DNA of 64,000 nucleotides from Streptomyces sp. PCS3-D2 (GTDB taxonomy: Bacteria > Actinomycetota > Actinomycetes > Streptomycetales > Streptomycetaceae): contig NZ_CP097800.1 in NCBI RefSeq assembly GCF_000612545.2, positions 1,736,001 to 1,800,000 of the forward strand. The letters run 5' to 3'. The position numbers were made by a program, and so were the translations under genes. Each line of letters begins with the position of its first letter. The stretch's first letter is position 1. Shown piece by piece: positions 10,848 through 42,256 of the stretch. The notes under the pieces were generated by a model, which worked only from the letters and a program-made list of their open reading frames with translations, made no database searches and was not told the origin of the DNA.

Positions 10848-10968
10848 GCGGGCCGGCCGACAGCACGGCACCGGGGAGGCCCGGACGGAGGCGACCACCG
10901 CCCCTTGTCCGGGGCCGTGGCCCGCACGAAGATCTACACAGTTCAGCAGCTATCAGGAGGTACCGCGG

Positions 10969-13866: not shown

Positions 13867-13876
13867 GAGAATCCCC

Positions 13877-20052: not shown

Positions 20053-20199
20053 GATCCGCGCCTCCCGCGCCCAACGCCCCGGCCGTCCCACCGGTTACGC
20101 CCCGCACCGCCGACACCCTCCGCACCGACGCGTACAGCCCGTACCCGTCCGCACGTCACTGCTGGTCAACGTTACTCACACACCGCCACCGTTGGCGGC

Positions 20200-20730
20200 A
20201 TGGAGTCCACACCTCACCCGGTCCAGTCGGCGCGCGAACCCCACGCCTCCTCCCGGGAGTTCGACATGCGGTTCACTTCCACCCCACGCGGCGCACGGCT
20301 CGCCCGGCGTCTCGTCTCGCACCGGCTCCACGACTGGGGCCACCCGTACAACACGCCCGTCAACGACACCGTCACCCTCCTCGCCGCCGAGCTCACCGCG
20401 AACGCCGTGCGGCACGGCCACGTCCCCGGCCGGGACTTCCGCCTCCGCCTCACCGCCGAGCCGAACACCGACGCCGACACCGACACCGACGCCAACACCG
20501 GCACGACGACCATCCGTATCGAGGTCACCGACACCCGCACCGAGCGGATGCCCACCCTCGCCGAGACCACCCCCGCCCCGGACGCCGAGTCCGGCCGTGG
20601 CCTGCTTCTCGTGGCCGCCCTCGCCACCCGCTGGGGCATCACACCGCGCCTCGCCGCCCCCGGCAAGACCGTCTGGGCGCAACTCGTTGTCAGTGGCCGG
20701 GTACAGACTGTCCTCGGAGTTGCCAACTGA
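20200..20730 (+). CDS. HATPase_c anti-sigma-factor/RsbW-like ATP-binding protein
   Basis: A 176-aa single-domain ATP-binding protein of the RsbW/SpoIIAB-like group that accompanies DUF397-XRE pairs. Visible are the N-box ELTANAVRHGHVPG (about residue 70), a G1-like DTRTERMP and the G2 loop SGRGLLLVAALATRWG. A Thr/Asp-Pro low-complexity insert (NTDADTDTDANTGTTT) sits between the two. The start is uncertain: ATG 20200 gives the long form, while ATG 20266 has a nearby GGGAG. The gene ends 17 bp before the membrane hydrolase, so it probably heads that operon. Confidence 0.82.
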   Translation: MESTPHPVQSAREPHASSREFDMRFTSTPRGARLARRLVSHRLHDWGHPYNTPVNDTVTLLAAELTANAVRHGHVPGRDFRLRLTAEPNTDADTDTDANTGTTTIRIEVTDTRTERMPTLAETTPAPDAESGRGLLLVAALATRWGITPRLAAPGKTVWAQLVVSGRVQTVLGVAN

Positions 20731-20747
20731 CCGAGAGGTTCTCTTCC

Positions 20748-24240: not shown

Positions 24241-25385
24241 TCGAGCACGTGGCACTGACCAACTTCAAGGCGTTCCGGTCCGCCCGTATCAGGCTCGCCC
24301 CGGTCACGCTCCTCACCGGTCTCAACTCCTCGGGCAAGAGCACGGTCCTGCAGTCCTTGGCGCTGCTGCGTCAGTCGTACGACTCGGGCATCCTCATGTC
24401 CACCGACGGGGACACCGACAACCGTGGCGGATTCCTCCTCGACGGTGACCTCGTGGAACTGGGAACAGGCCAGGACCTCCTGCACGAGGACTTCGAAATC
24501 GAGCAGCCGCGCGGAGAGCCGCTGATCTCCATCGACTTCGACACCTCCGACAAGCAGCGGTACATCTGGGCCGCCCTGTACGCGCCCGAACAGGACGTGC
24601 TGCCTCTCGTGCTCTCCTCCCGGCCCACGGACTGGGGTGACGTGCCGTTGTTCTCACGGCGCTTCCAGTACCTGAAAGCCGACCGGATCACACCGGCCAC
24701 CACCTACCCCCGGTCTCACCACCAGGCGATCGGCCGGGGCTTCCTCGGGTCGCGCGGCGAGCACGCCGTCAACTTCCTCCGGCACCACGCACAGGACGTC
24801 GTACCGGACGGCCACCCGCTCCGGCACCCGGACGCCCGCGGGCACACCCTGCTCGACCAGGTCGTCGCGTGGATGCAGGAGCTCTGCCCCGGAGTAAACC
24901 TCGAAGCCTCGGAGATCCCCGGGATCGACTCGGTACGTCTCAGCTTCGGCTTCGGAGGCACCGCCGGACTGGACTCCACCCGGCGCCGGCGCCCCACGAA
25001 CGTCGGCTTCGGTCTCACCTACGCCCTCCCCATCGTCGTGGCCTGCCTCACCGCAGGACCCGGCAGTCTCATCCTGCTGGAGAACCCCGAGGCGCATCTC
25101 CACCCGCGCGGCCAGTCCCGTATGGCATCCCTCATCGCCGCCGCGGCGTCCGCCGGCGCACAGCTCATCGTCGAGACCCACAGCGACCACGTACTCGACG
25201 GGACCCGGCTGGCCGTCAAACAGGGACGACTGGCAGCCACGGACACCGCGGTGCACTTCTTCCGCGGCAACGGGGCCGGAGTGGAGATCATCACTCCGAC
25301 GGTCGCCGAGGACGGATCGCTCTCCGAATGGCCGGAGGGCTTCTTCGACGAGTCGGAGATCACGCTCGACCAGCTGCTGGGCTGA
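24237..25385 (+). CDS. AAA15/21 (DUF3696-type) SMC-like ATPase, putative Menshen component NsnB
   Basis: A 382-aa ABC/OLD-like ATPase. It opens with IEHVALTNFKAFRSARI and Walker A GLNSSGKST (about residues 27-35). Walker B and the following loop are LLENPEAHLHPRGQSRM near residue 285, and the switch histidine follows in ETHSDHVLDG. The C-terminal tail matches the DUF3696 style (VHFFRGNGAGVEIITPTVAEDGSLSEWPEGFFDE). All nucleotide-binding residues are intact. The GTG start overlaps the stop of the DUF262 gene, so the two are produced together. Such ATPases commonly act as sensors that license a partner effector in abortive-type defence. Confidence 0.83.
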   Translation: MIEHVALTNFKAFRSARIRLAPVTLLTGLNSSGKSTVLQSLALLRQSYDSGILMSTDGDTDNRGGFLLDGDLVELGTGQDLLHEDFEIEQPRGEPLISIDFDTSDKQRYIWAALYAPEQDVLPLVLSSRPTDWGDVPLFSRRFQYLKADRITPATTYPRSHHQAIGRGFLGSRGEHAVNFLRHHAQDVVPDGHPLRHPDARGHTLLDQVVAWMQELCPGVNLEASEIPGIDSVRLSFGFGGTAGLDSTRRRRPTNVGFGLTYALPIVVACLTAGPGSLILLENPEAHLHPRGQSRMASLIAAAASAGAQLIVETHSDHVLDGTRLAVKQGRLAATDTAVHFFRGNGAGVEIITPTVAEDGSLSEWPEGFFDESEITLDQLLG

Positions 25386-25427
25386 CCGCCCGCTCGTCAG
25401 TTCCGGAAGCCACAAGGGGGGCGCTTC

Positions 25428-26360
25428 ATGGTGCTCATGTTCTTCAACGAGAAGTCCTGCGTCTCCGACTGCTCACAGGACGAGGCCGGGCAGGCCATGC
25501 GCGATTTCGTGAAGGTCTGCCAGGCGGTCAGGCAGGTGGACAACGGGGCGAGTCTCATCAGTGAGGTCCGGCTGGAGGACCTGGAGATCGCTCCCGGCTA
25601 CTACCTCGCCCAGTGGCGGAACGAAAGCCGCAACCGTGACCACTGGCGGTTCATGCGGTTGCTCAACCGCAAGTCTCCCCACTCCACGGTCCTACCGGAC
25701 CCTCCCGAGGACCAGGAGGTCGAATACCGTCACGACGGCGACCGGGTTCTCGGGCTCGCCGCCGCCCACCTCATGGAGACACTGGCCGTCAGCCTTCCCA
25801 CCGCCCGGCCCTGGGAAGCCTCCTGGCTGAGGGTCGAGTACGTCCTCGTCGACGAGGACGAGGTCCAGGAGGACAGGGCGGAGGTCCGGCACGCCTCGAC
25901 ACCCGAGCATGTGGCGGAACACGCCGACTGGATACGCGAGAGCGCAGCGAACGCCGTCACCTCCGGCGCGCAGCTGTGGGAGGAACGCGAGAGCCTCTTC
26001 GCCTCGCTCCAGTTCACCCCTGGGGTGGAGGACGACCTGAGAAGCCTCCCAGGTGTCTCCGTGCCCTCGGTACGGGCGGCGCTCCTCGCCCTCAACACAG
26101 CGGCCGAGGCGTGGAGGCCCGGGGACGCGGAACCGGCCTGGCCCGTCAAAGTGGTCCCCGAGAGCGACACCCGGATCAATCTCGGGCTGTGCAACTTCCC
26201 CGACACGGACGGGGAGAAGCGGCTGTTCAGCCTCCACACCCGGTTCCGGCCGAGGCCCGGCCGCATCCATCTGAGGGTGGTCGCCGAGGAGGGCCGCGTG
26301 CGGATCGGCTACATCGGCCGGAAGCGCCTGGCGGAGGACGTCCCCCGCAGGTCGCGGTGA
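25428..26360 (+). CDS. Unknown 310-aa protein, third gene of the DUF262/ATPase set
   Basis: No family is recognised with confidence. The protein is acidic in its middle (VDEDEVQEDRAEVRH), has no signal peptide or membrane segment, and carries scattered basic/aromatic stretches (YYLAQWRNESRNRDHWRFMRLLNRK near residue 60; RRVAEEGRVRIGYIGRKRL-like end). It starts at ATG 25428 behind an AAGGGGGG site and lies 42 bp after the ATPase gene on the same strand, with the convergent helicase-PLD gene stopping 1 bp after it. The N-terminal NEKSCVSDC...AMRDFV block is reminiscent of small partners of OLD-like ATPases, but this is only a resemblance. It is the best candidate for the third Menshen-like component (NsnC position). 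Confidence 0.6.
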   Translation: MVLMFFNEKSCVSDCSQDEAGQAMRDFVKVCQAVRQVDNGASLISEVRLEDLEIAPGYYLAQWRNESRNRDHWRFMRLLNRKSPHSTVLPDPPEDQEVEYRHDGDRVLGLAAAHLMETLAVSLPTARPWEASWLRVEYVLVDEDEVQEDRAEVRHASTPEHVAEHADWIRESAANAVTSGAQLWEERESLFASLQFTPGVEDDLRSLPGVSVPSVRAALLALNTAAEAWRPGDAEPAWPVKVVPESDTRINLGLCNFPDTDGEKRLFSLHTRFRPRPGRIHLRVVAEEGRVRIGYIGRKRLAEDVPRRSR

Positions 26361-26361
26361 G

Positions 26362-29300
26362 CTACGGCTTCGGGCCGCCCGGGCGGCGCCAGACGTCGAT
26401 GTCCTTCTTCCAGGCCTTGTTGCCGCCGCCCGTCGGACACCGCCCGTTGTAGCAGCGCCAGTACCAGTTCTCCTTCGCGCCGCGCCTGATCTCGATGTCG
26501 TCCTGACCGCATCGGGGGCATTTCGGCGGTCGGGCGAAGACCTCGGCATGCTCGTGGGTGAGGATCTTGCGGGCGAAGTAGGCGCCGCGCATCGTGACCA
26601 TGACCTCGCGCGTCCAGCTCTGCGACAGGGCATTGAGGCTGCCGAGCATCACGGTCTTCTCGTCCACGACGACGATCTTCTGGTGCATGACGTGCATCGG
26701 TACGACCGTGTGGACGACCGCGCGCAGGTCCTCGACGAGGGAGGCGTTCGCCGGCTTCTTCTGGAGCTGGTCACTGGGGTCGCGGACGAAGACGGTCACC
26801 CGTACGCCCCGGTCGACCGCCGCGCGCAGCTCCGGGAGGATCATCCGGACGCGCCTGGCCACCCAGGGCGTCCACAGCCACAGGGAGGTCCGCGCACTCC
26901 TGATGGCAGCGACGAAGGACGCGTAGAACGTCGTCTCGTCGTCGACCTCACTGACCTCCACGTGCCGCGAGAGGACCTCCGCCAGGCGGTCGCCGAACTC
27001 CCCGCGTGGCACGCTCAGCTCGGGCGGCGTGATCAGGGACTTGGCGGGGAGGACCCGTACCCCGGGCGTGCCGATGAGGGCGTCCAGCTGTCCGAACGGG
27101 GAGCCCGGGGCCTTGCGTGCCACGTCCCGGATGCGTGTGGCACTCGCGAGGACGTACACACGGGTCTGTACGCGGGTCATGGCCACGTTGAACAGCCTGA
27201 TCCCGCTGCGCATCCAGTCGCTCGCCTCCGGCGCGCGCGATGCCTTCGCCATCCACAGCGGGCGGCTGTGTTCGCCTTCGACGGTGTCGAAGACCACGAT
27301 GGGGAACTCCCGGCCCTGGAACCGGTGCGCGGTGCCGACCTCGGCGCTCGGTCCCCCGTCCCGTTCGATGTCGCGCAGCGCCTCCAGGGTGGCCTCGGCC
27401 TGGTCTCCGTACGGAGTCACGACGCCCGTGGTCTCGCCGTCCCCGCCGTGCAGATCGATCAGGGCCCGGGAGATGAGCGCGCCCGCGGGCCACCAGCCCT
27501 TGCCGGGGCCGGTGAGATGGACATGGGCGAGTTCGTGGAGCCCGTCGGTGTCGATGAGGACGATCTCCGGGTCGTCGGCACTCCTGGGGTTCCGTACGAC
27601 GGGGCCGGCCTGGAGCACGCCTCCGTAGGCCAGGCCGTTGACGAGGCCCATCACGGCACGTCCGAACCGGTTCTGCGTCACCAGGGTCGTACAGGCCGGG
27701 TGGGTCCGCGCCGCCGCCGGGTCGGTGATGCCGCAGTGCTGGAACACGTCCGGGATCAGCCAGCGCTGGATGTCGGGGCGCCTCTTGTCCGCCAGCGCAC
27801 GGGGAACGACCGGGCCCAGCTGCATGAAGTCCCCGAGGAGCACGGCCGCCTGCTGGGCATGGGAGACGGCGAGCAGGACCTCCGGCAGGGAAGCGGCGCC
27901 GACCTCGTCGATGAGGACCACGTCGTAGTGGCCGGAGAAGACATGCCGGTTGGTGCGGAATCGGGCCAGGGTCGTGGCGACGAGACGGGCGTTCCTGATG
28001 ATCTCGCCCTGCGCGTCGCGGGCGAGGCGCTCGTACTCCTCCTGGATCTCCTTGTACCGCTCCTCCAGCGGTCCCTTCCGGACCGCTTCGGAAGCGACGA
28101 CGGGACGCAGGGCCGCGGCCTTCCCGTGCCGGGCCGGCCAGCCCTGTTCCTCGGCGGTGGCGATGAGCGCCTCGGCGAGGTGCGCGCGCCCGGCCTCGTC
28201 CTCGGCCTCCGCGAGAGCCGTGCGCAGTTCGCCCAAGGACCGGGTCAGGGTCCGGTAGCGGGTGGCGGCGTGGCGCGCCTCCGTGTCACGTCGGTCGATC
28301 TCGCCGGCGGAGAACGGGATCGCCCGCGTCATCTCCTCGGTCTGCACCGCGATCTGGGCCCGGCGGCGATCCGCGATGTCGCGGGCCCTGAGGGCATGGT
28401 CGTGCGCGTCTCGGTACTGGCCCGTCGCCTCACCGCATGCGGCCTGGGCCTCGGCCCGCTCGGCTCGTGAGCGCAGTTTGGCGAGCCCCGTCCGCTTCTC
28501 GACCTCGCGCACGGTGCGCTGTGCCCGGCGCAGCCGCTCCTGGCTCAGAAGAGCGGCGGACTCGGCTGCCGTGGCCGCGGCCTCCACCCGGTCCGCCTCG
28601 TCGAGGAGGGCGTCGACCTGCTTCCAGAGGTGGCGCGAGTCCTCGGCGTCGTCCCGGTCTTTCAGCGCCCTGTTCAGGTCCTGGTCGGCCGCTGCCAGGG
28701 TCTGGCCGACCTCCCCGGCGGCCTTCTTCAGCTCCGCCACCCGTACGTCGCGCGAGGCCGCATCACCGAACGGCTCGGTCACCAGGGCCCTGGCCTGTGC
28801 GTAGGCCTCCGCGTCGAACCGTACGAGGCTCGCCTCCAGCTCCGCCAGTTCCTCCGCGCGGCGGCGGATGCCCAGCAGCTCCGCCGACGCCCGGGCACGC
28901 CGCCCCTCGACGTCGGCCAGCCGGGCCCGGACCATGAGGGGCAGGGACACGTGCGGGTCGTCGGTGATCTCCTTGAGCTGAGGCGGCCCCACCCGGACGA
29001 TGTCTCCGCTGCTGTGGCGGCGTCCCCTCAGGACGCCCTTCAGGGCGTTGTCCACGGCGATGTTGGTCGCGGAGACCAGCAGCACCCTCTTGCCCGCGGC
29101 GATCAGGTCTCCGACGGCCAGCGTGAGGACCATCGTCTTCCCCGTGCCGGGCGGCCCCCACACCAGGTGGACACCGTTCCCCAGGCAGGCCCGGTAGGCC
29201 TCCGCCTGCTCGGGGAAGAGGCCGGCCGGCGCCTCGGCCCGGGAGGGCTCCCCGGTGGGGCTGCCGGAAGCGAGGAGGCTGCCGAGCGGGCTGTCACCCA

Positions 29301-29661
29301 GCCCGGCGATGCCGTCCCTCAGGGTTTCCAGTAGGAAAGTGGGGGGCTGTTGCAGAACCCAGAGGAAGGGGTCGACCGGGTCCGCGAACTCGGCGACCCT
29401 GACGGTCAGCGACGAACCGCTCTGCATGGTTTCGGTGACGGCGAAGCCGGCTTCCGCACCCGGTTCCTCGGGTCCGGCGAGACGAAGGCTTTCGAGCTGG
29501 TCGGGGTTGAGTTCGGTGCCCCGCAGATCCACAGCGAACCGGCCCGGCTCGCCGGCCCGCGCAGCGCGGCCGATCCTGCGCCACCGCGGGCGCTGACCTG
29601 CTCCCCCTTCCACGGCGATCCATTCGTCGACCGCCGTGGTGATCTCCTCGCGCCAGCCCAA
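26362..29661 (-). CDS. mkoC: Upf1-like SF1 helicase fused to a PLD nuclease (Mokosh type II MkoC-like)
   Basis: About 1099 aa. The SF1B/COG1112 helicase has Walker A GPPGTGKT near residue 169, motif Ia VSATNIAVDNAL, a long Ala/Glu/Arg-rich coiled-coil insertion (about 215-560), motif II LIDEVGAASLPE, motif III LLGDFMQLGPVVP, motif V AHRFQGREFP and motif VI NVAMTRVQTRVYV. The C-terminus has one HKD motif HQKIVVVDEKTVMLGSLN (about 993-1010) and a zinc ribbon CPRCG...C. One HKD implies dimerisation. A single-gene helicase-PLD fusion is the Mokosh type II architecture. The start is uncertain: TTG 29661 has a close AAGGGGGAG, while TTG 29745 would add 28 residues of unlikely sequence. It is divergent from the giant helicase gene. 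Confidence 0.82.
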   Translation of the reverse strand: MGWREEITTAVDEWIAVEGGAGQRPRWRRIGRAARAGEPGRFAVDLRGTELNPDQLESLRLAGPEEPGAEAGFAVTETMQSGSSLTVRVAEFADPVDPFLWVLQQPPTFLLETLRDGIAGLGDSPLGSLLASGSPTGEPSRAEAPAGLFPEQAEAYRACLGNGVHLVWGPPGTGKTMVLTLAVGDLIAAGKRVLLVSATNIAVDNALKGVLRGRRHSSGDIVRVGPPQLKEITDDPHVSLPLMVRARLADVEGRRARASAELLGIRRRAEELAELEASLVRFDAEAYAQARALVTEPFGDAASRDVRVAELKKAAGEVGQTLAAADQDLNRALKDRDDAEDSRHLWKQVDALLDEADRVEAAATAAESAALLSQERLRRAQRTVREVEKRTGLAKLRSRAERAEAQAACGEATGQYRDAHDHALRARDIADRRRAQIAVQTEEMTRAIPFSAGEIDRRDTEARHAATRYRTLTRSLGELRTALAEAEDEAGRAHLAEALIATAEEQGWPARHGKAAALRPVVASEAVRKGPLEERYKEIQEEYERLARDAQGEIIRNARLVATTLARFRTNRHVFSGHYDVVLIDEVGAASLPEVLLAVSHAQQAAVLLGDFMQLGPVVPRALADKRRPDIQRWLIPDVFQHCGITDPAAARTHPACTTLVTQNRFGRAVMGLVNGLAYGGVLQAGPVVRNPRSADDPEIVLIDTDGLHELAHVHLTGPGKGWWPAGALISRALIDLHGGDGETTGVVTPYGDQAEATLEALRDIERDGGPSAEVGTAHRFQGREFPIVVFDTVEGEHSRPLWMAKASRAPEASDWMRSGIRLFNVAMTRVQTRVYVLASATRIRDVARKAPGSPFGQLDALIGTPGVRVLPAKSLITPPELSVPRGEFGDRLAEVLSRHVEVSEVDDETTFYASFVAAIRSARTSLWLWTPWVARRVRMILPELRAAVDRGVRVTVFVRDPSDQLQKKPANASLVEDLRAVVHTVVPMHVMHQKIVVVDEKTVMLGSLNALSQSWTREVMVTMRGAYFARKILTHEHAEVFARPPKCPRCGQDDIEIRRGAKENWYWRCYNGRCPTGGGNKAWKKDIDVWRRPGGPKP

Positions 29662-29889
29662 AGCTCCCCCTTTTCGGCTCGCGAATGGTAGATCTTGCGG
29701 GGGCCCCGCGCACCTCCCACTGCAGGAAAGCCATGGCCGCCACAAGGGGAATGGAAAGGTTCGAGACTCGGGTCGGACCTATTCGGCCATGCCCCGGTCT
29801 CCGTCAACCGGACTGCGGACCCGCCTGTCCGAGGCGGCATATACCGTTGACACAGCTCGCCGACCTGGCACGAAGCGAAGGAGAACGTC

Positions 29890-32800
29890 GTGAGGCCCAC
29901 GCTGGCCGCCGCGCAGCTGCGGGGCAGTCTCACCCAGTACCTCACGACGACGTACGCGCTCACCGACGAGGACACCCGGCGGGCACTGGAGCGGTTCCTG
30001 GGGCATCCCGAGACCGGGATGTTCCGCGGCCCCTACCTGCGGATCAGGACTCCGTTCCACAAGGCCGGGACCGGCTGGGAGAAGCACCTGGAGTGGAACC
30101 CGGGCTTCACCCCGTACCGGCATCAGGCGAAGGCGTACGAGCGGCTGAGCACGCTCCACGGGCCCGCCCTGCCGACGCTGGTCACGACGGGAACGGGATC
30201 CGGTAAGACCGAGTCGTTCCTCGTCCCCGTCCTCGACCACTGCCGCCGCGAGAAGGCCCTCGGCCGGACCGGGATCAAGGCCGTGCTGCTGTATCCGATG
30301 AACGCGCTCGCCACCGACCAGGCCGGCCGCATCGGCGACTACCTGGCGCAGCCGGAAATGGCCCAGGTGACGGCGGGGCTCTACATCGGCGACCGGCCGG
30401 ACACCGACTTCCGCCGGGTGATGACGCGGCGTGAGGAGATGCGGCAGTCGCCGCCGGACCTGCTCATCACGAACTACAAGATGCTCGACCTGCTGCTCCA
30501 GCGGACCGAGGACCGCGCGCTGTGGCAGGACGCCCGGATCCAGTACGTGGTGCTGGACGAGTTCCACACCTACGACGGGGCGCAGGGCACCGATGTCGCC
30601 ATGCTGCTGCGCCGCCTGGCGATGACCACCGGCCGGAGCGAGCCCGGACGTCCCCTCGGCTCGATCTGCCCGGTGGCGACCTCCGCGACCCTCGGTGAGG
30701 GCGGGCCCGGGACCGGCCCCGGCTCCATCCTGGAGGTGGCCGCCCAGGTCTTCGGGATGCCGTTCTCCCCGGACGCGCTGGTGGGCGAGGAGCGGATGAC
30801 GCCCGAGCAGTTCACCGGACCGGTGAACTACGGGCTGCCCGAACCGCCCTCGCCCGAGGAGGTGATCGCCTGCTCGGGCGGCCCCGATGTGGTGTCGCGT
30901 CCGGACAAGCTCGATCTCAACGCGCTGGCAGTACGGCTGCTGGGACAGCAGGGCCTGTCCGCCTTCGACATCGGACGGCTGCTCAAGCAGCACGACTTCA
31001 CGCAAGGGGTGCTGTCCCTGCTCGACGGGGACCCGCTGAGCGAATGGGAACTCCGCGACCGTCTCGGCCGGTTCGGGTACGCCTGGGGCCGGACCGCCCG
31101 GGAGAATCCCCGCCTCGCGCTCGCCGCGCTCGCACGGTTCGTCGCCCTGCTGTCGGCCGCCCGCGATCCGGAGTCGGACGAGCGCCGACCGCGGCCCCTG
31201 CTGCACGTGGAGACCCACCTGTGGATCCGGCCGGTCGGCCGGATCGTGCGCGGAGTCGGCCCCGGAAAGCCCGAGTTCCACTGGTACGAGGACGACCTCG
31301 CCCGGCGCTCCGCCCTGCCCGCGGCACCCCCCGAGGGCGACGGGGAGCCCGAAGCCGGTCAGATCGGGCACGTGGCACGCTCGCATCGGGCGCAGGCGGC
31401 GATCGGCGCGGACACCGCCGTACGGCAGGCGAGCATAAGGCTCCCCGCCGTGTACTGCCGCAACTGCGGCCGCTCCGGCTGGGCGGCCGTCTCCCCGGAG
31501 GCCGATCCCCAGCAGCTGGTGATGGCCCACGACAAGATCTGGCGCGCCAGTGTGGGCCGGGAGAAGCGGCGGGTCCGGTACTTCATCGCCGCCACGGCCG
31601 CGGAGCAGGAGGACACGCTGGCGGCGGTCGGCCAGTCCCGGCCCGCGGCGGGGAGCGGGCAGTCGTCGGCGCTGATCCTGGACGGCGCTCAGGGGACGTA
31701 CCGGCTGCCGGTCGCCGAGGACGCCGGGAACCTGCAGGACGCCTGCTTCGTCCTGGCGATCACGGACAAGAAGACCGCCGACCGGGCCGCCGTCGACCAG
31801 CGCTGCCCCGCGTGCGACACCGACAACACGATGCGTTTCCTCGGCACCCGGCCGGCCGCTCTGGCGGCCGCGACGGTGACCCAGCTGTTCACCGGGCAGG
31901 AGGTCGCGCTCGAAGCGGAGGAGCGCAAGACCCTCCTGTTCAACGACTCGACCCAGGACGCCGCGCACCGTGCCGGGTACGTGGCGAACCGGTCGTTCAC
32001 GTTCTCGCTGCGCTCGCTCCTCGCACGCAACCTGGACGAGTCCGGCAAGCCGTCGGCGCTCAACGACCTGATCGGGAACGTGCTCGACTCCGTCGAGGAC
32101 CCGCAGGCCCTCGCAGCGGTCGTCCCGCCCGATCTGTACGACGAACCGGGCGTGGACCGGCTGCTGTCCGGGCGGGGCACGGGCGACCTGCGGACCTGGA
32201 AACTCATCGGAGAGCGGCTCGCCTTCGCCACCGTCATGGAGTTCGGGCTCCGCTCCCGGCAGGGCCGCACCCTGGAACTGACCCGGACGGCGGCCGCCGA
32301 GGTCGTCATCGCGGACCGGCACCGGATCACCATGCTCGCCCGCGACGTGCACATGGCCCTGCCCGGTCAACTGCTGGGCACCGGCCTGCCGACGGCCGAG
32401 CGCTATCTCGCCTTCGTCCGCGGACTGCTGGAACGGATCCGGCTGCGCGGCGGGGTCCGGCACCGGTGGCTGGAGCCGTGGACGAAGGACGCGGGGGTGA
32501 CCCGGTTCAAGATCTGGGGCGGCCGGCCCGACGGCATGCCCGCGTTCCCCGACAGTGTCGCCGCGCCGCGCTTCCTGCTCGACGGTGACAAGGGCAGGTC
32601 CGACTTCGACTCGACGACGGCCCGCGCCGGCTGGTACCAGGACTGGGCGCGCCGCTGCCTGGGCCTCGACGCCCCCGGGGCGGCCGAGTACCTCCGCAGG
32701 CTGCTGCCCGTCCTCGTCGACGAAGGACTCCTCGCGGTACGGACGGCACAGGACCGGACGACGAAGGTCTACGGACTGCAGCCCGGCCACATCGAGGTGC

Positions 32801-35800
32801 GGCTGCTTGAGGACGACATCGTCAACAAGGCCTTCGTCACCTGTGAGGCGTGCGGCTGGGAGCAGGTGGTCCATCCCTCCCGGCGGACCCGCTGGTACGG
32901 GCACCCCTGCCCCCGGTACCGGTGCCGTGGTCAGATCACCGCGCCGCAACCGGGCCAGGCCACCATGCCGTCTTCCGGTTCCACCAGTTTCGGCGGCCCC
33001 CGGCCGCGCGACTACCGCGACGACTACTACCGGCACCTGTACCGGACGGGTGGCACCTTCCGGGTGGTGACGGCCGAGCACACCGGCATGCTCACCCGGC
33101 CCCAGCGGGAGCGCGTGGAGCGGGCCTTCCGCGACGGCACCCACTACACCGACCCGAACGTGCTGTCGTGCACTCCGACCCTGGAGCTCGGCATCGACAT
33201 CGGTGACCTGTCCGCCGTCCTCCTGGGCTCGCTCCCGAAAGGACCCGCCAACTACGTGCAGCGGGCGGGCCGTGCGGGCCGCAAGACGGGCAACGCCCTG
33301 GTGGTGGCCTTCGGCGGCCGCCGGGCCCGCGACCTGTACTACCTCGACGCGCCAAGGGAGATGATCGCCGGGGACATCGTGCCTCCCGGCTGCTACCTCT
33401 CCGCGGTGGAGATCCTGCGCCGCCAGTACACGGCGCACCTTCTGGACCTCGCCGCCCGGGGCCGGCTCACGACGAGCGACGGCGAGCCGCTACAGCCCGC
33501 GCCGCGCCTGGTGTCGGCGCTGTTCGGCAGCACGGCCTGGTGCCAGGAGCTCGCGGACGCGGCCCAAGCCCACGGCGCCGAGCTCGTCGAGTCGTTCCTG
33601 GCCCTGTTCCCCTCCCTCCCCGGCCGGCCGGACACCGGGGTCTCCGAGCAGGCCGCCGAGGAGCTCCGCGCGTACGCGTGCGGCGGCATCGTACGCGCGC
33701 TCCAGGAGGCCGAGGAGGAGTGGACCGGCCGCGGTGAGGAACTCCGGCGCCGGATCCACGCGATCGACGCGGCGATGGACCAGCTCGTGCGCAGCGACCC
33801 CGAGCAGGAGCGTGAGTGGCGCGAGCTGCGTGCCGAGCGCTACGCGACGGGCAACCTGCTGCGCGACCTGAACCAGACCAGTGCCCACGGGGCACTGGTC
33901 GAGCTCGGTCTGCTGCCCAACTACACCCTCTCGGACACCACCACGCAGCTGGAGGCCACTCTCTACTGGACCGAGCAGCCCGAGACCGAAGGGGCGAAGA
34001 AGACCTACCACAGCGAGGTCCGGGACTACGAGCGCTCACGCCGGTCCGCGCTGTCCGAGCTGGCGCCCGGAAACAGCTTCTACGTCAACGGCTACAAGCA
34101 CGTCGTCCGGGCCCTGGACATCGGCAGTCCGGAGCGCCGTGCCTGGTCGGTGTGGCGGCTGTGCCCCGCCTGCGGTTACGTCCGTACGGAGAACGCCCAG
34201 GCCGATGCCTCACCGTGTCCGCGGTGCGGTGGCCGGGAGATCGCCGACGCCGGCTGTGTCCAGCGCGTGCTCGAACCGAGGCGGGTCATGTCACGCGACA
34301 AGCGGGACGACGCCCGGGTCCGCGACGACAAGGACGAGCGTGACAGCAGGCGGTATGCCGGCCTCACGACCGTGGACATCGACCCGGTCCACCTGGCCCC
34401 GGGCTCGTGGCGCCACGACACCGCCGTCTTCGGCGTCGACTTCACCCGCCGGGCCGTGGTGCGCACGCTGAACCTGGGCCTCGACCGCCAGGACGGCAGC
34501 AGCACCGTACCCCTCGCCGGGGCCGACGTCCGGATCAACCCGTTCTACGTCTGCACGAGCTGCGGCGGCGCCACCTCCGAGGGGCGTCCCGTCGTGGACC
34601 ACCACCAGGACGCACTCACCGAATCCCTCGCCGCGTCGACCAGGGCCAGCGCACACCACCAACTGTGGTGCCCGCGCCGCAAGGTCCGTACGAGCACTCC
34701 GGAAGGCCAGGGCAAGGGCGAGGACGTCCCTCTGCTCCTGGCCCACGAGCTGACCACCGAGGCCGTCCGGATCCTGCTTCCCGCCTCGGTCGCCCGCGTC
34801 AAGGAACGCCTCGCGTCCTTCACCGCCGCCCTGTTCGTGGGCATCGCCGCACGCTACGGCGGCGACCCGGACCACATCGACATCACCGCCGCATCCATGC
34901 CCGACGGCAACGACGCGGAATGGCCCCGTCGTTTCCTCGTCGTCTACGACCGGCTGCCGGGCGGCACCGGCTACCTGCACCGGCTCGCCACCTCCGACGG
35001 CTTCCGCGAAGTGCTGCTGAGAGCCCGCGATGTGATCGACAACTGCCCGTGCATCGAGAAGGGTCTCGACGGCTGCCACCGCTGTCTGCTGCGCCGCGTA
35101 CCGGCCGGCGACTACGACAAGGTCAGCCGTAACGAGGTCCGGCAGATGTTCGACGAACTGCTGGGGTCCGACGGCGGGGACTGGGCCACCTCGCCGGTCG
35201 CGGCCACCCACCAGATCCCGCTGGAGCGGCAGGCCGAGAGCGACCTGGAGGTCATGTTCCTGGAGACCCTGGGCGAATGGGCGAAGCAGCCCACGGCCAG
35301 GGCCAGCGCGGACGCCTACACGACGACGGCCGGGACGTACTCGCTGGACCTGCGGCTGACCGGCGCCGACGGGGCCACCGTCAGCTGGCGGGTCTCCCAG
35401 CAGCGAGTCCTCGACGGCACCCGCCCCGACGTCCTCTTCGAGCGTACGGACGCGCCCGGTCCGCGGATCGCGCTCTACCTCGACGGGTACGAGTTCCACG
35501 CCGGGCCGAAGCACAAGGGCAGGCTGGCCGACGACGCCGTCAAGCGGACCCGGCTGCGCGCCGACGGAGTGAGGGTCTTCCAGCTCACCTACTACGACGT
35601 GAAGGACTGGCGGACCCGGGTCCGTGACACCGGGTACGCGAGCACGGGGCCGGAGCACCCGGTCTGGGTGCCGTACGGCGAGCAGGGCCAGAAGCGTGCC
35701 CGTGACTACTACGCGGGGGTGCACGGCGGCCTGCCGGGCGAACTGTCCGCGGACCTCTGGGTGAACCCGGCGGATCTTCTGACAGCTCATCTGCGCACAC

Positions 35801-36759
35801 CGGACGCTTCGTTGTGGCAGCGGCGCGCCGAGGCCGCCGTCGCGGGGTTGCTGGGCGCCGGAGTCCGGATCGCCGCACTGCACCCGCAAGCGGTCGGCGA
35901 GCAGCTCCTCGCCGCCCTGCGGGGCGGCGCCCCGCAGGGGCCCCAGGGGCCGGTGCAGGTGCTCACCGCGGTCGACGCCGCGGGATGTGTGCTCACCGCC
36001 GCCGCGGACGGCCGGCACCGGCCGCCGGTGTGGACCGCGCTGGCCCTCCTCGACGACAGCGACCGGGCGGTCGCGGACGAGACCGGGCACAAGCGGCGCT
36101 GGCAGGCCTGGCTCTACTGGAGCAATGTGCTGCAGTTCCTGGAGCACGGAGGCGGCGACAGCGTCCAGCTGACGACCAGCCTGCTGGACGGCTTCACCTC
36201 CGACGGCCTCGCCGTCACAGGAGGCTCGGGCTGGCTCGAATCCCAGCGGGCCGAGCGCCCCGCCACCGTCACGGAACCGCAGGACTCCGTCATGGAGCGA
36301 CCGGCCGCCGTCACGGCGAGCCCCGCCGGAGACGTGGCGGAGAGGCCACCCGCCCCGGTCAACCCCCCATCCGGCACTGTGCAGCCCTCCGGCACGGCCG
36401 CTGGCAGCGCCTGGGAGCAGGTACTGGAATTCCTCGACCCCGATGAACCCGGCCTGCTGTCCCTCAGCCAGGGGCTCCGTGCCCTGGGCGTGGTGCCGCC
36501 TGAAGCCGGCTTCGAACTGGACGAGCACGGCTGGATGGCCGAACTCGCCTGGACTTCCGCCCGGATCGCCGTGGTGACCGCTCACCGCCCGGTCGACGGA
36601 GAACGGGACCACGACGCGGAGGACCGGGACCGGGCCTTCGTGTCGGCAGGCTGGCGGATCCATACAGCCGCCTCCTGCACCGCCCTGGACATCAAGGACC
36701 TCCTCGCCGCGGCGGAGGTCGAGAACACGGACACGAACGACGGAGACCAGCAGCGATGA
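29890..36759 (+). CDS. druE: Giant DEAD-like helicase with DUF1998 and a fused nuclease-like domain (DruE class)
   Basis: 2289 aa. Helicase domain 1 has Walker A GTGSGKT near residue 100, YPMNALATDQ, motif II DEFHTYDGAQGTD near 222 and TSATLG. Domain 2 has CTPTLELGIDIGD and motif VI QRAGRAGR near 1123. DUF1998 occupies about 1640-1745, ending with the cysteine cluster CPCIEKGLDGCHRC. Several other CxxC pairs (CRNCG, CEACG, CPACG, CPRCG) mark zinc ribbons. After DUF1998, about residues 1780-1905, a block with ESDLEVMFLETL, RPDVLFE and IALYLDGYEFH resembles a PD-(D/E)XK/Vsr-like fold. Size and DUF1998 match DruE of Druantia; MrfA-type helicases are far shorter. A GAAGGAG precedes the GTG start. 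The stop overlaps the next helicase gene (ATGA). Confidence 0.82.
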   Translation: MRPTLAAAQLRGSLTQYLTTTYALTDEDTRRALERFLGHPETGMFRGPYLRIRTPFHKAGTGWEKHLEWNPGFTPYRHQAKAYERLSTLHGPALPTLVTTGTGSGKTESFLVPVLDHCRREKALGRTGIKAVLLYPMNALATDQAGRIGDYLAQPEMAQVTAGLYIGDRPDTDFRRVMTRREEMRQSPPDLLITNYKMLDLLLQRTEDRALWQDARIQYVVLDEFHTYDGAQGTDVAMLLRRLAMTTGRSEPGRPLGSICPVATSATLGEGGPGTGPGSILEVAAQVFGMPFSPDALVGEERMTPEQFTGPVNYGLPEPPSPEEVIACSGGPDVVSRPDKLDLNALAVRLLGQQGLSAFDIGRLLKQHDFTQGVLSLLDGDPLSEWELRDRLGRFGYAWGRTARENPRLALAALARFVALLSAARDPESDERRPRPLLHVETHLWIRPVGRIVRGVGPGKPEFHWYEDDLARRSALPAAPPEGDGEPEAGQIGHVARSHRAQAAIGADTAVRQASIRLPAVYCRNCGRSGWAAVSPEADPQQLVMAHDKIWRASVGREKRRVRYFIAATAAEQEDTLAAVGQSRPAAGSGQSSALILDGAQGTYRLPVAEDAGNLQDACFVLAITDKKTADRAAVDQRCPACDTDNTMRFLGTRPAALAAATVTQLFTGQEVALEAEERKTLLFNDSTQDAAHRAGYVANRSFTFSLRSLLARNLDESGKPSALNDLIGNVLDSVEDPQALAAVVPPDLYDEPGVDRLLSGRGTGDLRTWKLIGERLAFATVMEFGLRSRQGRTLELTRTAAAEVVIADRHRITMLARDVHMALPGQLLGTGLPTAERYLAFVRGLLERIRLRGGVRHRWLEPWTKDAGVTRFKIWGGRPDGMPAFPDSVAAPRFLLDGDKGRSDFDSTTARAGWYQDWARRCLGLDAPGAAEYLRRLLPVLVDEGLLAVRTAQDRTTKVYGLQPGHIEVRLLEDDIVNKAFVTCEACGWEQVVHPSRRTRWYGHPCPRYRCRGQITAPQPGQATMPSSGSTSFGGPRPRDYRDDYYRHLYRTGGTFRVVTAEHTGMLTRPQRERVERAFRDGTHYTDPNVLSCTPTLELGIDIGDLSAVLLGSLPKGPANYVQRAGRAGRKTGNALVVAFGGRRARDLYYLDAPREMIAGDIVPPGCYLSAVEILRRQYTAHLLDLAARGRLTTSDGEPLQPAPRLVSALFGSTAWCQELADAAQAHGAELVESFLALFPSLPGRPDTGVSEQAAEELRAYACGGIVRALQEAEEEWTGRGEELRRRIHAIDAAMDQLVRSDPEQEREWRELRAERYATGNLLRDLNQTSAHGALVELGLLPNYTLSDTTTQLEATLYWTEQPETEGAKKTYHSEVRDYERSRRSALSELAPGNSFYVNGYKHVVRALDIGSPERRAWSVWRLCPACGYVRTENAQADASPCPRCGGREIADAGCVQRVLEPRRVMSRDKRDDARVRDDKDERDSRRYAGLTTVDIDPVHLAPGSWRHDTAVFGVDFTRRAVVRTLNLGLDRQDGSSTVPLAGADVRINPFYVCTSCGGATSEGRPVVDHHQDALTESLAASTRASAHHQLWCPRRKVRTSTPEGQGKGEDVPLLLAHELTTEAVRILLPASVARVKERLASFTAALFVGIAARYGGDPDHIDITAASMPDGNDAEWPRRFLVVYDRLPGGTGYLHRLATSDGFREVLLRARDVIDNCPCIEKGLDGCHRCLLRRVPAGDYDKVSRNEVRQMFDELLGSDGGDWATSPVAATHQIPLERQAESDLEVMFLETLGEWAKQPTARASADAYTTTAGTYSLDLRLTGADGATVSWRVSQQRVLDGTRPDVLFERTDAPGPRIALYLDGYEFHAGPKHKGRLADDAVKRTRLRADGVRVFQLTYYDVKDWRTRVRDTGYASTGPEHPVWVPYGEQGQKRARDYYAGVHGGLPGELSADLWVNPADLLTAHLRTPDASLWQRRAEAAVAGLLGAGVRIAALHPQAVGEQLLAALRGGAPQGPQGPVQVLTAVDAAGCVLTAAADGRHRPPVWTALALLDDSDRAVADETGHKRRWQAWLYWSNVLQFLEHGGGDSVQLTTSLLDGFTSDGLAVTGGSGWLESQRAERPATVTEPQDSVMERPAAVTASPAGDVAERPPAPVNPPSGTVQPSGTAAGSAWEQVLEFLDPDEPGLLSLSQGLRALGVVPPEAGFELDEHGWMAELAWTSARIAVVTAHRPVDGERDHDAEDRDRAFVSAGWRIHTAASCTALDIKDLLAAAEVENTDTNDGDQQR

Positions 36760-39044
36760 CGACCACAGGCGTGACCCTGCGTCTGCTCGACAAGGCGGAC
36801 AAGGAGATCCTGAGGCTGCCGCGCGCGGTCAAGGGCGCGATCTACGACTTCCAGCACAAGTTCAAGGAGAACCCGTACGTCCGGGGTCTGCGGCTGAAGC
36901 AGCTGGAGGGCCACGACCGGCTCTGGTCGGCCCGTGTCAACGACGAGTACCGTGTCCTGCTGCTGCGCCTGGCGGACACCGACTGGCTCATCGTCTCCGT
37001 CAAGCACCGCAAGGAGGCGTACGAGAAGCTCGAACGGCTCTCGTACGGCATCAACCGGATCACCGGTGGCATCGAGTACGTCGACCTCCAGATCGTCGAG
37101 GAGAGCGTCCTTCGCCGAGGGGCGGCTCCCCGGCCCGCCACCGCCGCGCCTTCCGCCACCCCCGCTGAGCCCGTCCCGACACCCGCGCCCGCGCCCGCGC
37201 CGGCCCCCGTCCCGCTGTTCGCCGCGTTCTCCGACGAGCAGCTCACCGACCTCGGCGTCGCGGGACCGCTCGTACCGGTCGTCCGGACCCTGACCACCGA
37301 GGACCAGCTCCTCGGCCTGGCGGAGTACGCCCCGCAGCTCACCTCGGAAGTCCTGCTCGCACTCCACGACGGTGCGTCGTACGACGCGGTGCTGGAGCAG
37401 ATCACCAGTCCCGTCTCCGCACCCGAGCCCGTCGACCCCGATGACTTCCGGGCTGCCGCAGAGCGGCCGGCCACCATGGTCACGACGACGGACGAGGCGC
37501 TGCGTGAAGCCCTGGAGGGCGGCGACTTCGGTCGCTGGAAGGTCTTCCTCCACCCGACCCAGTCCCGGCTCGTCGAACGCGAGTACTCGGGTCCCGCCCG
37601 GGTGGGGGGCGGGCCGGGCACGGGCAAGACCATCGTGGCCCTGCACCGGGTCAAGCACCTGGTGGACCGTCTGCCTCCCGGCCGTGACAAGCCCGTCCTC
37701 CTCACCACGTACAACAAGAACCTCGCTGCCGACCTGAGGTCCCGGCTGCTCCAGCTGGGCGGCGAGGAGCTGCTGGCCCGCGTGGAGATCAGCCACGTCG
37801 ACCAGCTCGCGCTGCGCGTCGTCCGCGAGGCCGAACCCGGAAGCGCCAAGCAGACGCTCGACGAGAGTCAGGCTCTGCGGGAGTGGCGTGCCATGCTCGA
37901 CGAACTCGGCGAAACCGGGTGGGACGCCCAGTTCCTGCACGACGAGTGGTCGCAGGTCATCCTGGGCCAGGCCGTGGTCTCCCGGACCGAGTACTTCCGT
38001 GCACGGCGGGCCGGACGGGGCAAGAACATCTCGCGGGCCGAGCGCGCCGAGATCTGGCAGCTCGCAGAGCGGTTCACCCAGCGACTCGACCGCCTCGGAC
38101 GGCAGACCTGGGAACAGGTCGCCGAGCGCGCGGCGCGGCTGGAGATGGACCGCGAGCAGCGGATCCAGGCCATCGAGCGTCAGCGCGAGGAGGCGGGCGG
38201 TCTGGACAACATCCACCTTCAGTCCGGCTCCGCGGGCTGGCTGCGACACCGCTTCCAGCACGTCGTCGTCGACGAGGCGCAGGACCTGCGGGCAGCGCAC
38301 TGGAAGCTGTTGCGGGCGATGGTCCCCCGTGCCGCCAACGACATCTTCCTCGTGGGCGACACGCACCAGCGCATCTACGGCAACCAGGTCACGCTGGGCA
38401 GCCTCGGGGTCCACATCCGCGGACGCTCGGCCAAGCTGACCCTGAGCTATCGGACGACCCGGCAGATCCTCGGCTCCGCACTCGGTGTGCTCAGCGGCGA
38501 AAGCTTCGACGACCTGGACGGCAGCACCGAGGACCTGGCCGGGTACAGGTCCGTCCTGACCGGAAGCCTGCCGCAGTTGCAAGGCTGCGACGACTGGCAG
38601 TCCGAGCAGGAGTCGATCGCCGCGCTCCTCGCCGACTGGATCGCCCTGCCGACTCCCCCGGGGCAGATCGCCGTCTGTGTTCCGACGAACGCCATGGCAA
38701 GCGAGCTGGCCTACACCCTGCTCGCCCACAAGGGGATCAGGGCCGTCGAGATCGGCCCCGAAGGCCCCCGTGGAGACGAAGGCGTCCACATCGGCACGAT
38801 GTTCCGATTCAAGGGACTTGAGTACCAGCGCATGGTCATCGCGGGGGTCCGGGACGGACTCGTCCCCCGGGAGGCGGTCACCCGCCTGCGGAGCGACGAT
38901 GCCGTCCGCCACCGGCGCGAGCTCCGGCGGGCCCGCTCGCTGCTCTTCGTCGCGGCCACCCGGTCCCGGGACAGCCTCGCCATCTTCTGGCACGGCCGTC
39001 CGAGCCCGTTCCTCGAACCCCTCATGCATGCGCCCGCTGCTTGA
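36756..39044 (+). CDS. UvrD/Rep-type helicase with N-terminal RelE/ParE-like domain
   Basis: 762 aa. Residues about 5-95 look like a RelE/ParE toxin fold (LRLLDKADKEILRLP, RLKQLEGHDRLWSARVNDEYRVLL, VSVKHRKEAYEKL). A Pro/Ala-rich linker (about 125-150) and a helical spacer follow. The SF1A helicase starts near 285: Walker A GGGPGTGKT, motif II VVVDEAQDLRAAHW, motif III/IV LVGDTHQRIYGN with LSYRTTRQIL, motif V HIGTMFRFKGLEY and motif VI FVAATRSRD. All ATPase residues are intact. It is coupled by ATGA to the giant DUF1998 helicase, so the two probably act together. Whether the RelE-like part is an active RNase or a docking domain cannot be seen. Confidence 0.85.
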   Translation: MTTTGVTLRLLDKADKEILRLPRAVKGAIYDFQHKFKENPYVRGLRLKQLEGHDRLWSARVNDEYRVLLLRLADTDWLIVSVKHRKEAYEKLERLSYGINRITGGIEYVDLQIVEESVLRRGAAPRPATAAPSATPAEPVPTPAPAPAPAPVPLFAAFSDEQLTDLGVAGPLVPVVRTLTTEDQLLGLAEYAPQLTSEVLLALHDGASYDAVLEQITSPVSAPEPVDPDDFRAAAERPATMVTTTDEALREALEGGDFGRWKVFLHPTQSRLVEREYSGPARVGGGPGTGKTIVALHRVKHLVDRLPPGRDKPVLLTTYNKNLAADLRSRLLQLGGEELLARVEISHVDQLALRVVREAEPGSAKQTLDESQALREWRAMLDELGETGWDAQFLHDEWSQVILGQAVVSRTEYFRARRAGRGKNISRAERAEIWQLAERFTQRLDRLGRQTWEQVAERAARLEMDREQRIQAIERQREEAGGLDNIHLQSGSAGWLRHRFQHVVVDEAQDLRAAHWKLLRAMVPRAANDIFLVGDTHQRIYGNQVTLGSLGVHIRGRSAKLTLSYRTTRQILGSALGVLSGESFDDLDGSTEDLAGYRSVLTGSLPQLQGCDDWQSEQESIAALLADWIALPTPPGQIAVCVPTNAMASELAYTLLAHKGIRAVEIGPEGPRGDEGVHIGTMFRFKGLEYQRMVIAGVRDGLVPREAVTRLRSDDAVRHRRELRRARSLLFVAATRSRDSLAIFWHGRPSPFLEPLMHAPAA

Positions 39045-39091: not shown

Positions 39092-39592
39092 TCAGTCGCG
39101 GACGTGCCGGATGTGGGCGGTTCGCCGCTTCCCTGAGCCGTCTTCGTACTCGACCGCGGAGCCGACCGTGGACCACAGCAGGGCAACGGCGAGGGGCGTG
39201 AACGGGCTGAGCACCTCACCCCCCTCCGTCGCCGGACTCTGAGAAGTGATCTCGCACTCCTCGACGTCCGTCGCCCCGCCGAAGGCGAGCCCGACGAGCC
39301 GGCCGGGGGCGACCATCTGTCCGCCGGTCGCACGGGGAGTGGCGGGCAACGCCCTGAGGAGGTCCTCCAGGAAGGTGGCGCGCTCCTTGAGCTGCGCGCA
39401 CCGCTTCTCCCAGTGGCGCCGGTTGTCGGCGCGCACCCGGTAGTCGGTGGCGGTGTCCAGAGGCTCCGGCCGCTGCAGGTAATCACGGATCTGGGACAGT
39501 TCGTTCTCGACGCGGCGACGGGACGTCTCAGCCAGTCCTGTCACTGGGTACCGGGTGACAGGAGCGGTTTCGTCGCGTCGCGGAGCCGGCAC
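39092..39592 (-). CDS. GreA/GreB-family-like protein, 5' end interrupted by the IS21 element
   Basis: 166 aa as read from a GTG at 39592. An N-terminal coiled coil (LAETSRRRVENELSQI...WEKRCAQLKERATFLEDLL) is followed by a Gre C-terminal domain (VAPGRLVGLAFGGATDVEECEI, EGGEVLSPFTPLAVALLWSTVGSAVEYEDGSGKRRTAHI). That is the shape of a secondary-channel transcription factor. Streptomyces have several divergent Gre-like paralogues. The IS left end is at 39593, so the GTG lies inside the 4-bp target duplication. Removing the IS restores an open in-frame extension upstream to about 43,090 without an obvious start, so the native start and promoter were probably lost. GTG 39544 is another possible start. 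Expression would now depend on the IS. Confidence 0.6.
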   Translation of the reverse strand: MPAPRRDETAPVTRYPVTGLAETSRRRVENELSQIRDYLQRPEPLDTATDYRVRADNRRHWEKRCAQLKERATFLEDLLRALPATPRATGGQMVAPGRLVGLAFGGATDVEECEITSQSPATEGGEVLSPFTPLAVALLWSTVGSAVEYEDGSGKRRTAHIRHVRD

Positions 39593-39662: not shown

Positions 39663-40436
39663 TCAGTTGGCTGAGGGCTTATCGGGCTTGTCGGCGGGGT
39701 TCCTTGGGCGCTTGTTCGGGCGGTAGCTGGGGCCGTTCATGATGACTTGGTGGCTGGTGTTGATCAGGCGGTCGAGCAGGGACTCGGCGACGACGGGGTT
39801 GGGGAAGAGGGGATACCAGTCGCTGGGTGCCCGGTTGCTGGTGATGATCAGGGAGCGTCCCTGCCGCTCGGAGACGAGTTCGTAGAGGTCGTCGGCCTGG
39901 GCCGCAGTCAGTTGGCGCATGGCGAAGTCGTCGAGGATCAGGACGTCGGGGCGGATGAGCTCGCGCATGCGCTTGTCCCAGGTGCGGTCCGCGTGGCCGC
40001 CGGCCAGCTCGGCCAGGATCCGGCTGGTCTTGGCGAACCGGACGTTCGCGCCCTGCCGGACGGAGAGATGGCCGAGGGCCTGGGCGACGTGTGTTTTGCC
40101 GACGCCGACGGGCCCGAACAAGATCACCGACTCTCCGGCGTGGAGCCAGCGCAGTGCGGCCAGGTCCCGGATCTGGGCCGCGGGCAGCTTGGAGGAGGCG
40201 GTGAAGTCGAACTCCTCCAGGGTCACCTGCTGCTCGAACTTCGCGCGTTGGAGCCGTCGTTGGAAGGCCACGGTCTCGCGGCGGGTGATCTCGTCCTGGC
40301 AGAGGACCTGAAGGAAGTCCAGGTGTCCGAGCTCGCCGCCGTGGGCCTGGGCCAGCCGGGCGTCCAGGGTCTCAAGCATCCCCGACAGCCGAAGCGTCTT
40401 GAGCGACTCGCGCAGGGCGGTGTCCAGCACGCTCAT
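39663..40436 (-). CDS. istB: IstB-like AAA+ transposition helper ATPase
   Basis: A 257-aa ATPase of the IstB/DnaC-like family. Walker A is GPVGVGKTHVAQAL near residue 108, Walker B is VLILDDFAMRQL near 172, and the sensor/R-finger region is SLIITSNRAPSDW. IstB decamers bend target DNA and activate the IstA transposase. Its ATG overlaps the istA stop (ATGA), the canonical IS21 arrangement, and its length is that of the family. No damage is visible, so the element may still be active. Confidence 0.95.
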   Translation of the reverse strand: MSVLDTALRESLKTLRLSGMLETLDARLAQAHGGELGHLDFLQVLCQDEITRRETVAFQRRLQRAKFEQQVTLEEFDFTASSKLPAAQIRDLAALRWLHAGESVILFGPVGVGKTHVAQALGHLSVRQGANVRFAKTSRILAELAGGHADRTWDKRMRELIRPDVLILDDFAMRQLTAAQADDLYELVSERQGRSLIITSNRAPSDWYPLFPNPVVAESLLDRLINTSHQVIMNGPSYRPNKRPRNPADKPDKPSAN

Positions 40437-42058: not shown

Positions 42059-42256
42059 CCGGAATGTCCGCCGACCTCTCGGCCTTCGGTCGAGGGACGG
42101 TGACGACTCCACGACGGTCAGGACCCTCAACCCGGCACGGACATGCCCAAGGGGATCCTGAACGATTCGGGGCGCAAGCCTCATCAGCTTTCAAACCACT
42201 CATTGAGGGAACGTCCCCGCCGCGAAACCGGGCTGACCAGGACAGATAGCTGTGGC

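Follow-up and report, generated by a model that had tools for sequence, protein, structure and literature searches.

Several anti-phage systems have been described whose components overlap with those of the locus considered here. ARMADA type II, as presented in the main text of a 2025 preprint by Bell et al. (PMC12458937), comprises a BrxHII-like ArmA, a PglX-like ArmB, a YprA-like ArmC and a RelE-fused GajB-like ArmD encoded in strict order. In Escherichia coli, all four genes of this system are needed, and protection is described there as non-abortive, without host shutdown (PMC12458937). Among related systems, type 2 BREX is reported to have a kinase-bearing protein, PglW, and effectors or nucleases encoded within BREX core loci have already been described (PMC12839542). 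In a separate, developmental context, a study of Streptomyces venezuelae reports that WhiJ9 is required for iosA activation and that loss of BldB raises the abaA paralogues and iosA (PMC10294661).

The 64-kb stretch of Streptomyces sp. PCS3-D2 DNA analysed in this work (the window; positions 1736001-1800000 of contig NZ_CP097800.1) very probably carries an actinobacterial variant of the ARMADA type II anti-phage system, arranged as kinase-armA-armB-(regulator trio and cargo defence genes)-armC-armD. The system itself is known; the kinase and the cargo slot between armB and armC make it a new variant, which is described below by its observed gene content, homology, position, conservation and cargo turnover, and for whose kinase and slot roles are proposed. 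Compared with ARMADA type II as published, the locus shares the A-B-C-D order, the RelE-fused GajB-like ArmD and a YprA/DUF1998 ArmC with C-terminal nuclease-like domains, but a 10.9-kb stretch with regulator and defence genes separates its armB from its armC, and its armA has a kinase gene before it. Unless stated otherwise, the genes and domains of the locus lie on the plus strand of the window.

An earlier note on this DNA had proposed a new helicase-nuclease defence module made of three large genes, and the three reading frames are indeed real (26362-29745 on the minus strand, 29890-36759 and 36756-39044). The second, armC (29890-36759), encodes a 2289-aa YprA-family DUF1998 helicase with C-terminal nuclease-like domains, and the third, armD (36756-39044), a 762-aa RelE-UvrD (GajB-like) helicase; the two genes overlap by 4 bp. 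Pfam recognizes DEAD, Helicase_C and MZB in ArmC, with the MZB/DUF1998 domain at residues 1646-1733 (34825-35088), and UvrD in ArmD, while PADLOC returns DruE-type matches of up to 290 bits for ArmC and a GajB-type match for ArmD. Against the proteins of E. coli ATCC 8739, window ArmC is 29% identical over 1995 columns (629 bits) and window ArmD 32% identical (342 bits). Based on this homology to ARMADA type II proteins, the pair at 29890-39044 is identified as the armC-armD half of ARMADA II. The RelE-like/UvrD fusion suggested for the last gene is confirmed by the UvrD match and by the model of the ArmD N-terminus (residues 1-110; 36756-37085), which has a RelE fold, with Foldseek hits to RelE, YoeB and RelBE2 (probability 1.00; for the majority of the toxins listed, TM by target is 0.50-0.80).

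The nuclease-like domain that had been noticed after DUF1998 also gains support. In the first nuclease-like domain of ArmC (residues ~1778-1912; 35221-35625), D1847, D1865, G1866, H1870 and D1882 are invariant across 40 sequences, and a REase_MTES_1575 match is found in 13 of 40 ArmC homologues, the window copy not being among them. A structure prediction for this region, which the earlier note had suggested, was obtained as a model of residues 1741-2289, with which Foldseek gave no match below E 0.1; a profile search of PDB sequences gave a single match at E 0.21. Further fold comparison of the C-terminus supported the last domain only (residues 2184-2277; 36439-36720), which appears to have a Vsr-like fold, at middling Z.

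The upstream half of the system lies in tandem 11 kb before armC-armD on the same strand, giving the order A-B-C-D. armA (10969-13866) encodes a BrxHII/DrmD-like SNF2 helicase that matches E. coli ArmA at 491 bits and 35% identity; armB (13877-18955) encodes a PglX-like, type IIG-like methyltransferase matching E. coli ArmB in two segments (34% and 30% identity, 419 and 262 bits). All four Arm proteins are collinear with the ATCC 8739 set at 29-35% identity. The partners that the earlier note had thought absent are therefore present at 10969-18955 of the same window, and its view that the set falls outside the named types does not stand, since the pair corresponds to ArmC and ArmD of ARMADA type II as described by Bell et al. 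(PMC12458937) and, once armA-armB are included, matches an existing system. Its broader suggestion of a defence locus very probably holds.

Other named systems were also compared. Like Druantia, the window encodes a DruE-type DUF1998 helicase; however, in pairwise scoring (rather than a family-wide tree) window ArmC reaches 629 bits with ArmC of ATCC 8739 but at best 117 bits with that strain's DruE, and membership in Druantia was set aside on these scores. No DruH label occurs among the PADLOC matches listed for the nine window proteins scanned. With DISARM class 1 and BREX the locus shares an ArmA related to DrmD/BrxHII and an ArmB related to DrmMI/PglX-type proteins. The window proteins that were scanned include no DrmA/DrmB pair, and the window kinase, unlike the PglW of BREX, is a stand-alone protein of 404 aa rather than a multidomain one.

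ArmB shows an uneven pattern of conservation. When identity was computed per 100 aa against three close relatives, it was 84-99% up to about residue 1100, 41-61% at 1100-1500 and 70-83% beyond, which delimits a fast-changing, probable specificity region (residues ~1101-1500; 17177-18376). Such divergence is what would be expected if the specificity of the enzyme is being changed.

To place the locus in a broader context, GTDB genomes were scanned with the window's ArmD, and 80 of 108 loci were kept; having been gathered with the window's own protein, this set leans to close relatives. In 80/80 loci, ArmD is immediately preceded by an ArmC match on the same strand, with 0-606 bp between the matches, some of the ArmC matches being partial at contig ends. 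Co-occurrence of the DUF1998 helicase with homologues of the 36756-39044 protein, which the earlier note had named as a check, is thus complete in this set. Of the 80 armC-armD junctions examined, 77 could be resolved, and 69 of these retain the 4-bp overlap, which is found in E. coli ATCC 8739 as well. ArmC and ArmD are a fixed, mostly translationally coupled pair. Downstream of armD in the window are a small minus-strand gene (39092-39544) with a weak GreA/GreB C-terminal match below cut-off and an IS21-type istB/istA pair (39663-42184), in which istB is named from sequence and place rather than from a family scan; on Pseudanabaena and Tsukamurella plasmids, armD is likewise followed downstream by IS21 genes.

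ArmB was searched for in 70 of the 80 genomes (the search skipped L015, L020, L021, L033, L048, L059, L067, L077, L078 and L081), and a match was found in 69 of them (20/20 and 49/50). In 62 genomes it lies upstream of ArmC on the same strand and contig; in seven (L005, L031, L032, L035, L049, L068 and L080) it is on another contig, and one (L041) has armCD with no ArmB match at cut-off. All 62 linked loci have an armB-armC gap, of 987-22640 bp. An ARMADA locus in decay, with a cargo insertion that has parted armAB from armCD and left remnants on their way out, was considered as an explanation of this arrangement. Genes that adjoin elsewhere are apart in the window although all four are needed in E. 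coli (PMC12458937), and L041 (1/70) would fit such a loss; nevertheless, all four frames are open in the window, the armC-armD overlap is retained at the great majority of resolved junctions as given above, and the split marks a diverse clade of ArmC proteins. Decay is accordingly held to be highly unlikely.

That clade was recovered in an 83-row ArmC tree, in which gap state takes 6 changes, compared with 26 on average after shuffling, and the window falls in a 44-row clade, 43 rows of which have gaps above 3.6 kb; this is a quick tree with long branches flagged. The nearest named relatives of the window by ArmC are Streptomyces.

Within the window, the slot begins with a regulator trio: a DUF397 (BldB-like) gene on the minus strand (19013-19216; Pfam 71.9 bits), an XRE-DUF5753 (WhiJ-like) regulator gene, also on the minus strand (19213-20052; DUF5753 175 bits, HTH_31 55 bits), and a HATPase_c_2 (AbaA-like) gene on the plus strand (20200-20730; Pfam 40 bits). 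An open frame at 19997-20875 was discarded, as it overlaps the HATPase gene in another frame. The same gene kinds (DUF397, XRE-DUF5753 and HATPase) make up the BldB/WhiJ/AbaA paralogue clusters of Streptomyces, although the window trio sits inside an anti-phage operon whereas PMC10294661, as far as its account of these clusters goes, treats development.

The trio is followed by cargo. The first cargo gene (20748-22868) encodes a 706-aa protein with no Pfam or PADLOC match, in which hydrophobic stretches and a GxSxG-like motif can be made out by eye. Next comes a tandem set of nsnA-like (GmrSD_N/DUF262; 22927-24240, longest open frame from 22879), nsnB-like (AAA_21, DUF3696; 24237-25385) and nsnC-like (25428-26360) genes with PADLOC scores of 441, 383 and 354 bits. 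This set at 22927-26360 covers nearly the whole Nsn profiles (NsnA 18-384 of 385, NsnB 1-343 of 345, NsnC 2-302 of 305), which we take to be those of Menshen, and its difference from Menshen is that it sits inside another defence operon. The last cargo gene, on the minus strand at 26362-29661, encodes an AAA_11/AAA_12 helicase with a PLDc_2 domain; its longest open frame starts at 29745, and codon score places the likely start near 29661. Named MkoC-like in the earlier note, the protein from 26362-29745 matches MkoA (120 bits) and MkoC (96 bits) only partially, its best stretches covering MkoC 859-1111 of 1136 and MkoA 614-1039 of 1112; likewise, in comparison with Mokosh type II, it corresponds to MkoC over part of its length only. 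Neither a tRNA gene within the 64-kb window nor long near-perfect repeats framing the slot, sought in the window only, were found.

Across the 62 other slots, genes were called by a codon-score script, and cargo labels were carried over from one scanned representative per cluster. WhiJ-like genes occur in 57 slots, HATPase genes in 50 and DUF397 genes in 30, the last count being too low because the script undercounts short genes of this kind. As cargo, complete Menshen sets were found in 19 slots, HEC-01A/B in 26, EACC1 with a caspase-helicase in 17, Beta_protein in 23 and a MkoC-like gene in 2; at least one of Menshen, HEC-01, caspase-helicase and MkoC-like is present in 47/62 slots and none of these in 15/62. 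In the cluster found in 17 slots (L113:1526-5467), a fusion of about 1300 aa between a caspase-like part and an AAA_11/AAA_12 helicase adjoins the EACC1 protein, and by profile this fusion resembles MkoC/MkoA. Single slots hold DISARM drmA (683 bits) and drmB (257 bits) together with Menshen (L051; L145) or a DrmD-like helicase of 424 bits (L070; L162:4156-7674).

A random sample of 296 Streptomyces genomes was also examined. ArmB matched at E 1e-60 in 48 of them, the window's included. The search for the ArmC C-terminus covered 41 of the remaining 47 (six were omitted as having the coordinates of loci already covered) and was positive in 39. Among the 37 linked loci, 17 are contiguous, 8 have gaps of ~2.1-3.1 kb and 12 have gaps of 4.0-12.7 kb, one of the 12 (G489) having the coordinates of L038. 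For 20 of these loci, closer gap sizes were taken from the DNA: 13 have 24-127 bp and 7 have 1.9-3.0 kb. With 17/37 linked loci of a random sample contiguous, ARMADA II does not depend on the slot. The 12 larger slots hold a WhiJ-like gene in 11, complete Menshen in 9 and a MkoC-like gene in 2. All 7 small gaps contain WhiJ-like and DUF397 genes, and 5 a HATPase gene; Menshen, HEC-01, caspase-helicase and MkoC-like genes are absent from all seven. The regulator set being the commonest slot occupant, it may have come before the cargo. One genome (G420) has two ARMADA II loci (L178 and L192), of which one is contiguous and the other is interrupted by regulator genes at the armB-armC junction.

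In a phylum-wide sample of 296 genomes, ArmD-type matches at E 1e-40 were obtained for 8, the window's own included, and most of these are distant. In E. coli ATCC 8739, armB lies next to armC, and at least 80% of its 2-kb armB-armC junction is held by 168 of 5426 complete E. coli genomes, 518 holding some part. Annotated loci were examined in 12 of 42 plasmid records with an ArmB match: armB adjoins armC in nine, one gene lies between them in Nostoc and Haematobacter, and the Cylindrospermopsis plasmid has the arm order C-D-A-B. Interruption of armB-armC is thus not strictly limited to actinobacteria, given the Nostoc and Haematobacter plasmids; the large slot was seen, among the loci examined, only in actinobacteria. 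On the Tsukamurella plasmid (L246), a helicase-related gene and a separate DUF1998 gene stand directly before armA in a DISARM-like layout, and armC is annotated as two genes.

The content of the slot changes between close relatives. Relative to Streptomyces atratus (L039), window NsnA, NsnB, NsnC and the MkoC-like protein are 91-94% identical and the trio 64-83%. Relative to another locus (L007), the core is conserved (ArmA 95%, ArmC 94%), as are NsnA and NsnB (91-92%), while NsnC falls to 67% and the MkoC-like protein to 27.6% over part of its length; as the sequences align, the difference is a block replaced between constant flanks. The 706-aa gene is absent from the slots of L039, L007 and G523.

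These comparisons also bear on the three-gene module of MkoC-like protein, DUF1998 helicase-nuclease and RelE-UvrD helicase proposed in the earlier note. The divergent intergenic region shared by the MkoC-like gene and armC (29662-29889) does measure 228 bp, with the minus-strand start at 29661, and the MkoC-like gene stands beside armC at 91-92% identity in L005 and L039, as such a module would have it. However, the gene is so rare in the gaps of the other linked loci and of the random sample (2/62 and 2/12, as above) that it does not belong to the set, nearly identical armCD occur beside a replacement of only 27.6% identity, and the pair matches ArmC/ArmD with ArmA/ArmB upstream, so that a separate module of these three genes is hardly credible.

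Directly upstream of armA lies a gene for a stand-alone, 404-aa Hanks-type Ser/Thr protein kinase (9633-10847; Pkinase 161 bits). An overlapping open frame at 9896-10972 was rejected as the gene before armA, since codon score favours the kinase frame and Pfam agrees. Both ArmA and the kinase are found upstream of ArmB in 40/40 loci whose upstream DNA was examined (20 from the 80-locus set, 13 contiguous and 7 small-gap), all actinobacterial; the kinase homologue shares the strand of ArmA, and 93-788 bp separate the two matches. The window's 7.6-Mb genome has 34 Pkinase matches, 31 of them over cut-off, and at this density chance is a poor explanation of the adjacency. With the window counted, a loose HRDLKPxN motif is present in 41/41 kinase sequences, its stricter version in 37/41 and DFG in 39/41; a short conserved [LM]RxxYA tail lies near the C-terminal end in 37/41. 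By tblastn, only two Streptomyces plasmids were positive for the kinase among 13 other loci (12 plasmid records and ATCC 8739), with the Microvirga plasmid sequence beginning 436 bp before armA, where presence cannot be judged. On the plasmid of S. jietaisiensis, whose operon is contiguous, ATP-binding, HTH and DUF397 genes lie just upstream of the kinase.

The main text of the Bell et al. preprint (PMC12458937) mentions neither the upstream kinase nor the armB-armC split nor the divergence of the ArmB specificity region; supplements aside, the words 'kinase', 'WhiJ' and 'Streptomyces' are absent from it. Similarly, among the matches listed for literature searches on ARMADA and Druantia, on DISARM/phage/Streptomyces and on kinase/PglX/UvrD, no title or abstract names an ARMADA kinase or slot.

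How closely the kinase, regulators and cargo are tied to ARMADA can be read in two ways. The slot may be a passive insertion hotspot, to which kinase, regulators and cargo are linked only by the clustering of defence genes in islands; the change of cargo identity between close relatives agrees with this, as do the effectors already described inside BREX core loci (PMC12839542), and the kinase and regulators could be neighbours retained for other reasons. Such a hotspot would not by itself account for a kinase before armA in every one of the 40 loci despite the number of Pkinase genes in the genome, for WhiJ-like genes in 57/62 slots and 7/7 small gaps, or for the same regulator gene kinds just upstream of the kinase in the contiguous S. 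jietaisiensis plasmid locus, and it is considered a possible, though rather doubtful, explanation.

If the ARMADA II variant operates as its homologies suggest, the fast-changing specificity region of ArmB would define the site at which this enzyme methylates host DNA. Phage DNA lacking the modification would be engaged by ArmA, ArmC and ArmD and destroyed by the ArmC nuclease-like domain, to which the ArmD RelE domain might contribute. Through phosphorylation, the upstream kinase probably gates assembly or activity, and the conserved tail near its C-terminus may serve for docking. By analogy with what is described for S. venezuelae (PMC10294661), transcription at the split is probably under the control of the WhiJ/BldB/AbaA-like trio, while the slot itself would be a cargo bay for further defence modules, here the Menshen set and the MkoC-like helicase-PLD protein. 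A more ambitious proposal, offered tentatively, is a five-component, kinase-gated operon with a WhiJ/BldB-controlled bay of interchangeable backup immunity, layering direct and suicidal defence under one regulator; Menshen, HEC-01, EACC1/caspase-helicase and, in one case, DISARM drmA-drmB might then come into play once the ARMADA core has been engaged or overcome.

Should the kinase prove a working part of the system, ARMADA would gain a signalling arm that is absent from the E. coli model and that links it to the kinase-bearing BREX/Pgl systems. A slot that serves as cargo space controlled by a regulator of the Streptomyces developmental type would provide a testable case of defence systems nested within a defence operon, for which nature offers dozens of cargo exchanges while the core stays constant. 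In addition, self-marking becomes a directly testable question, given the divergence of the ArmB specificity region among systems that are otherwise alike.
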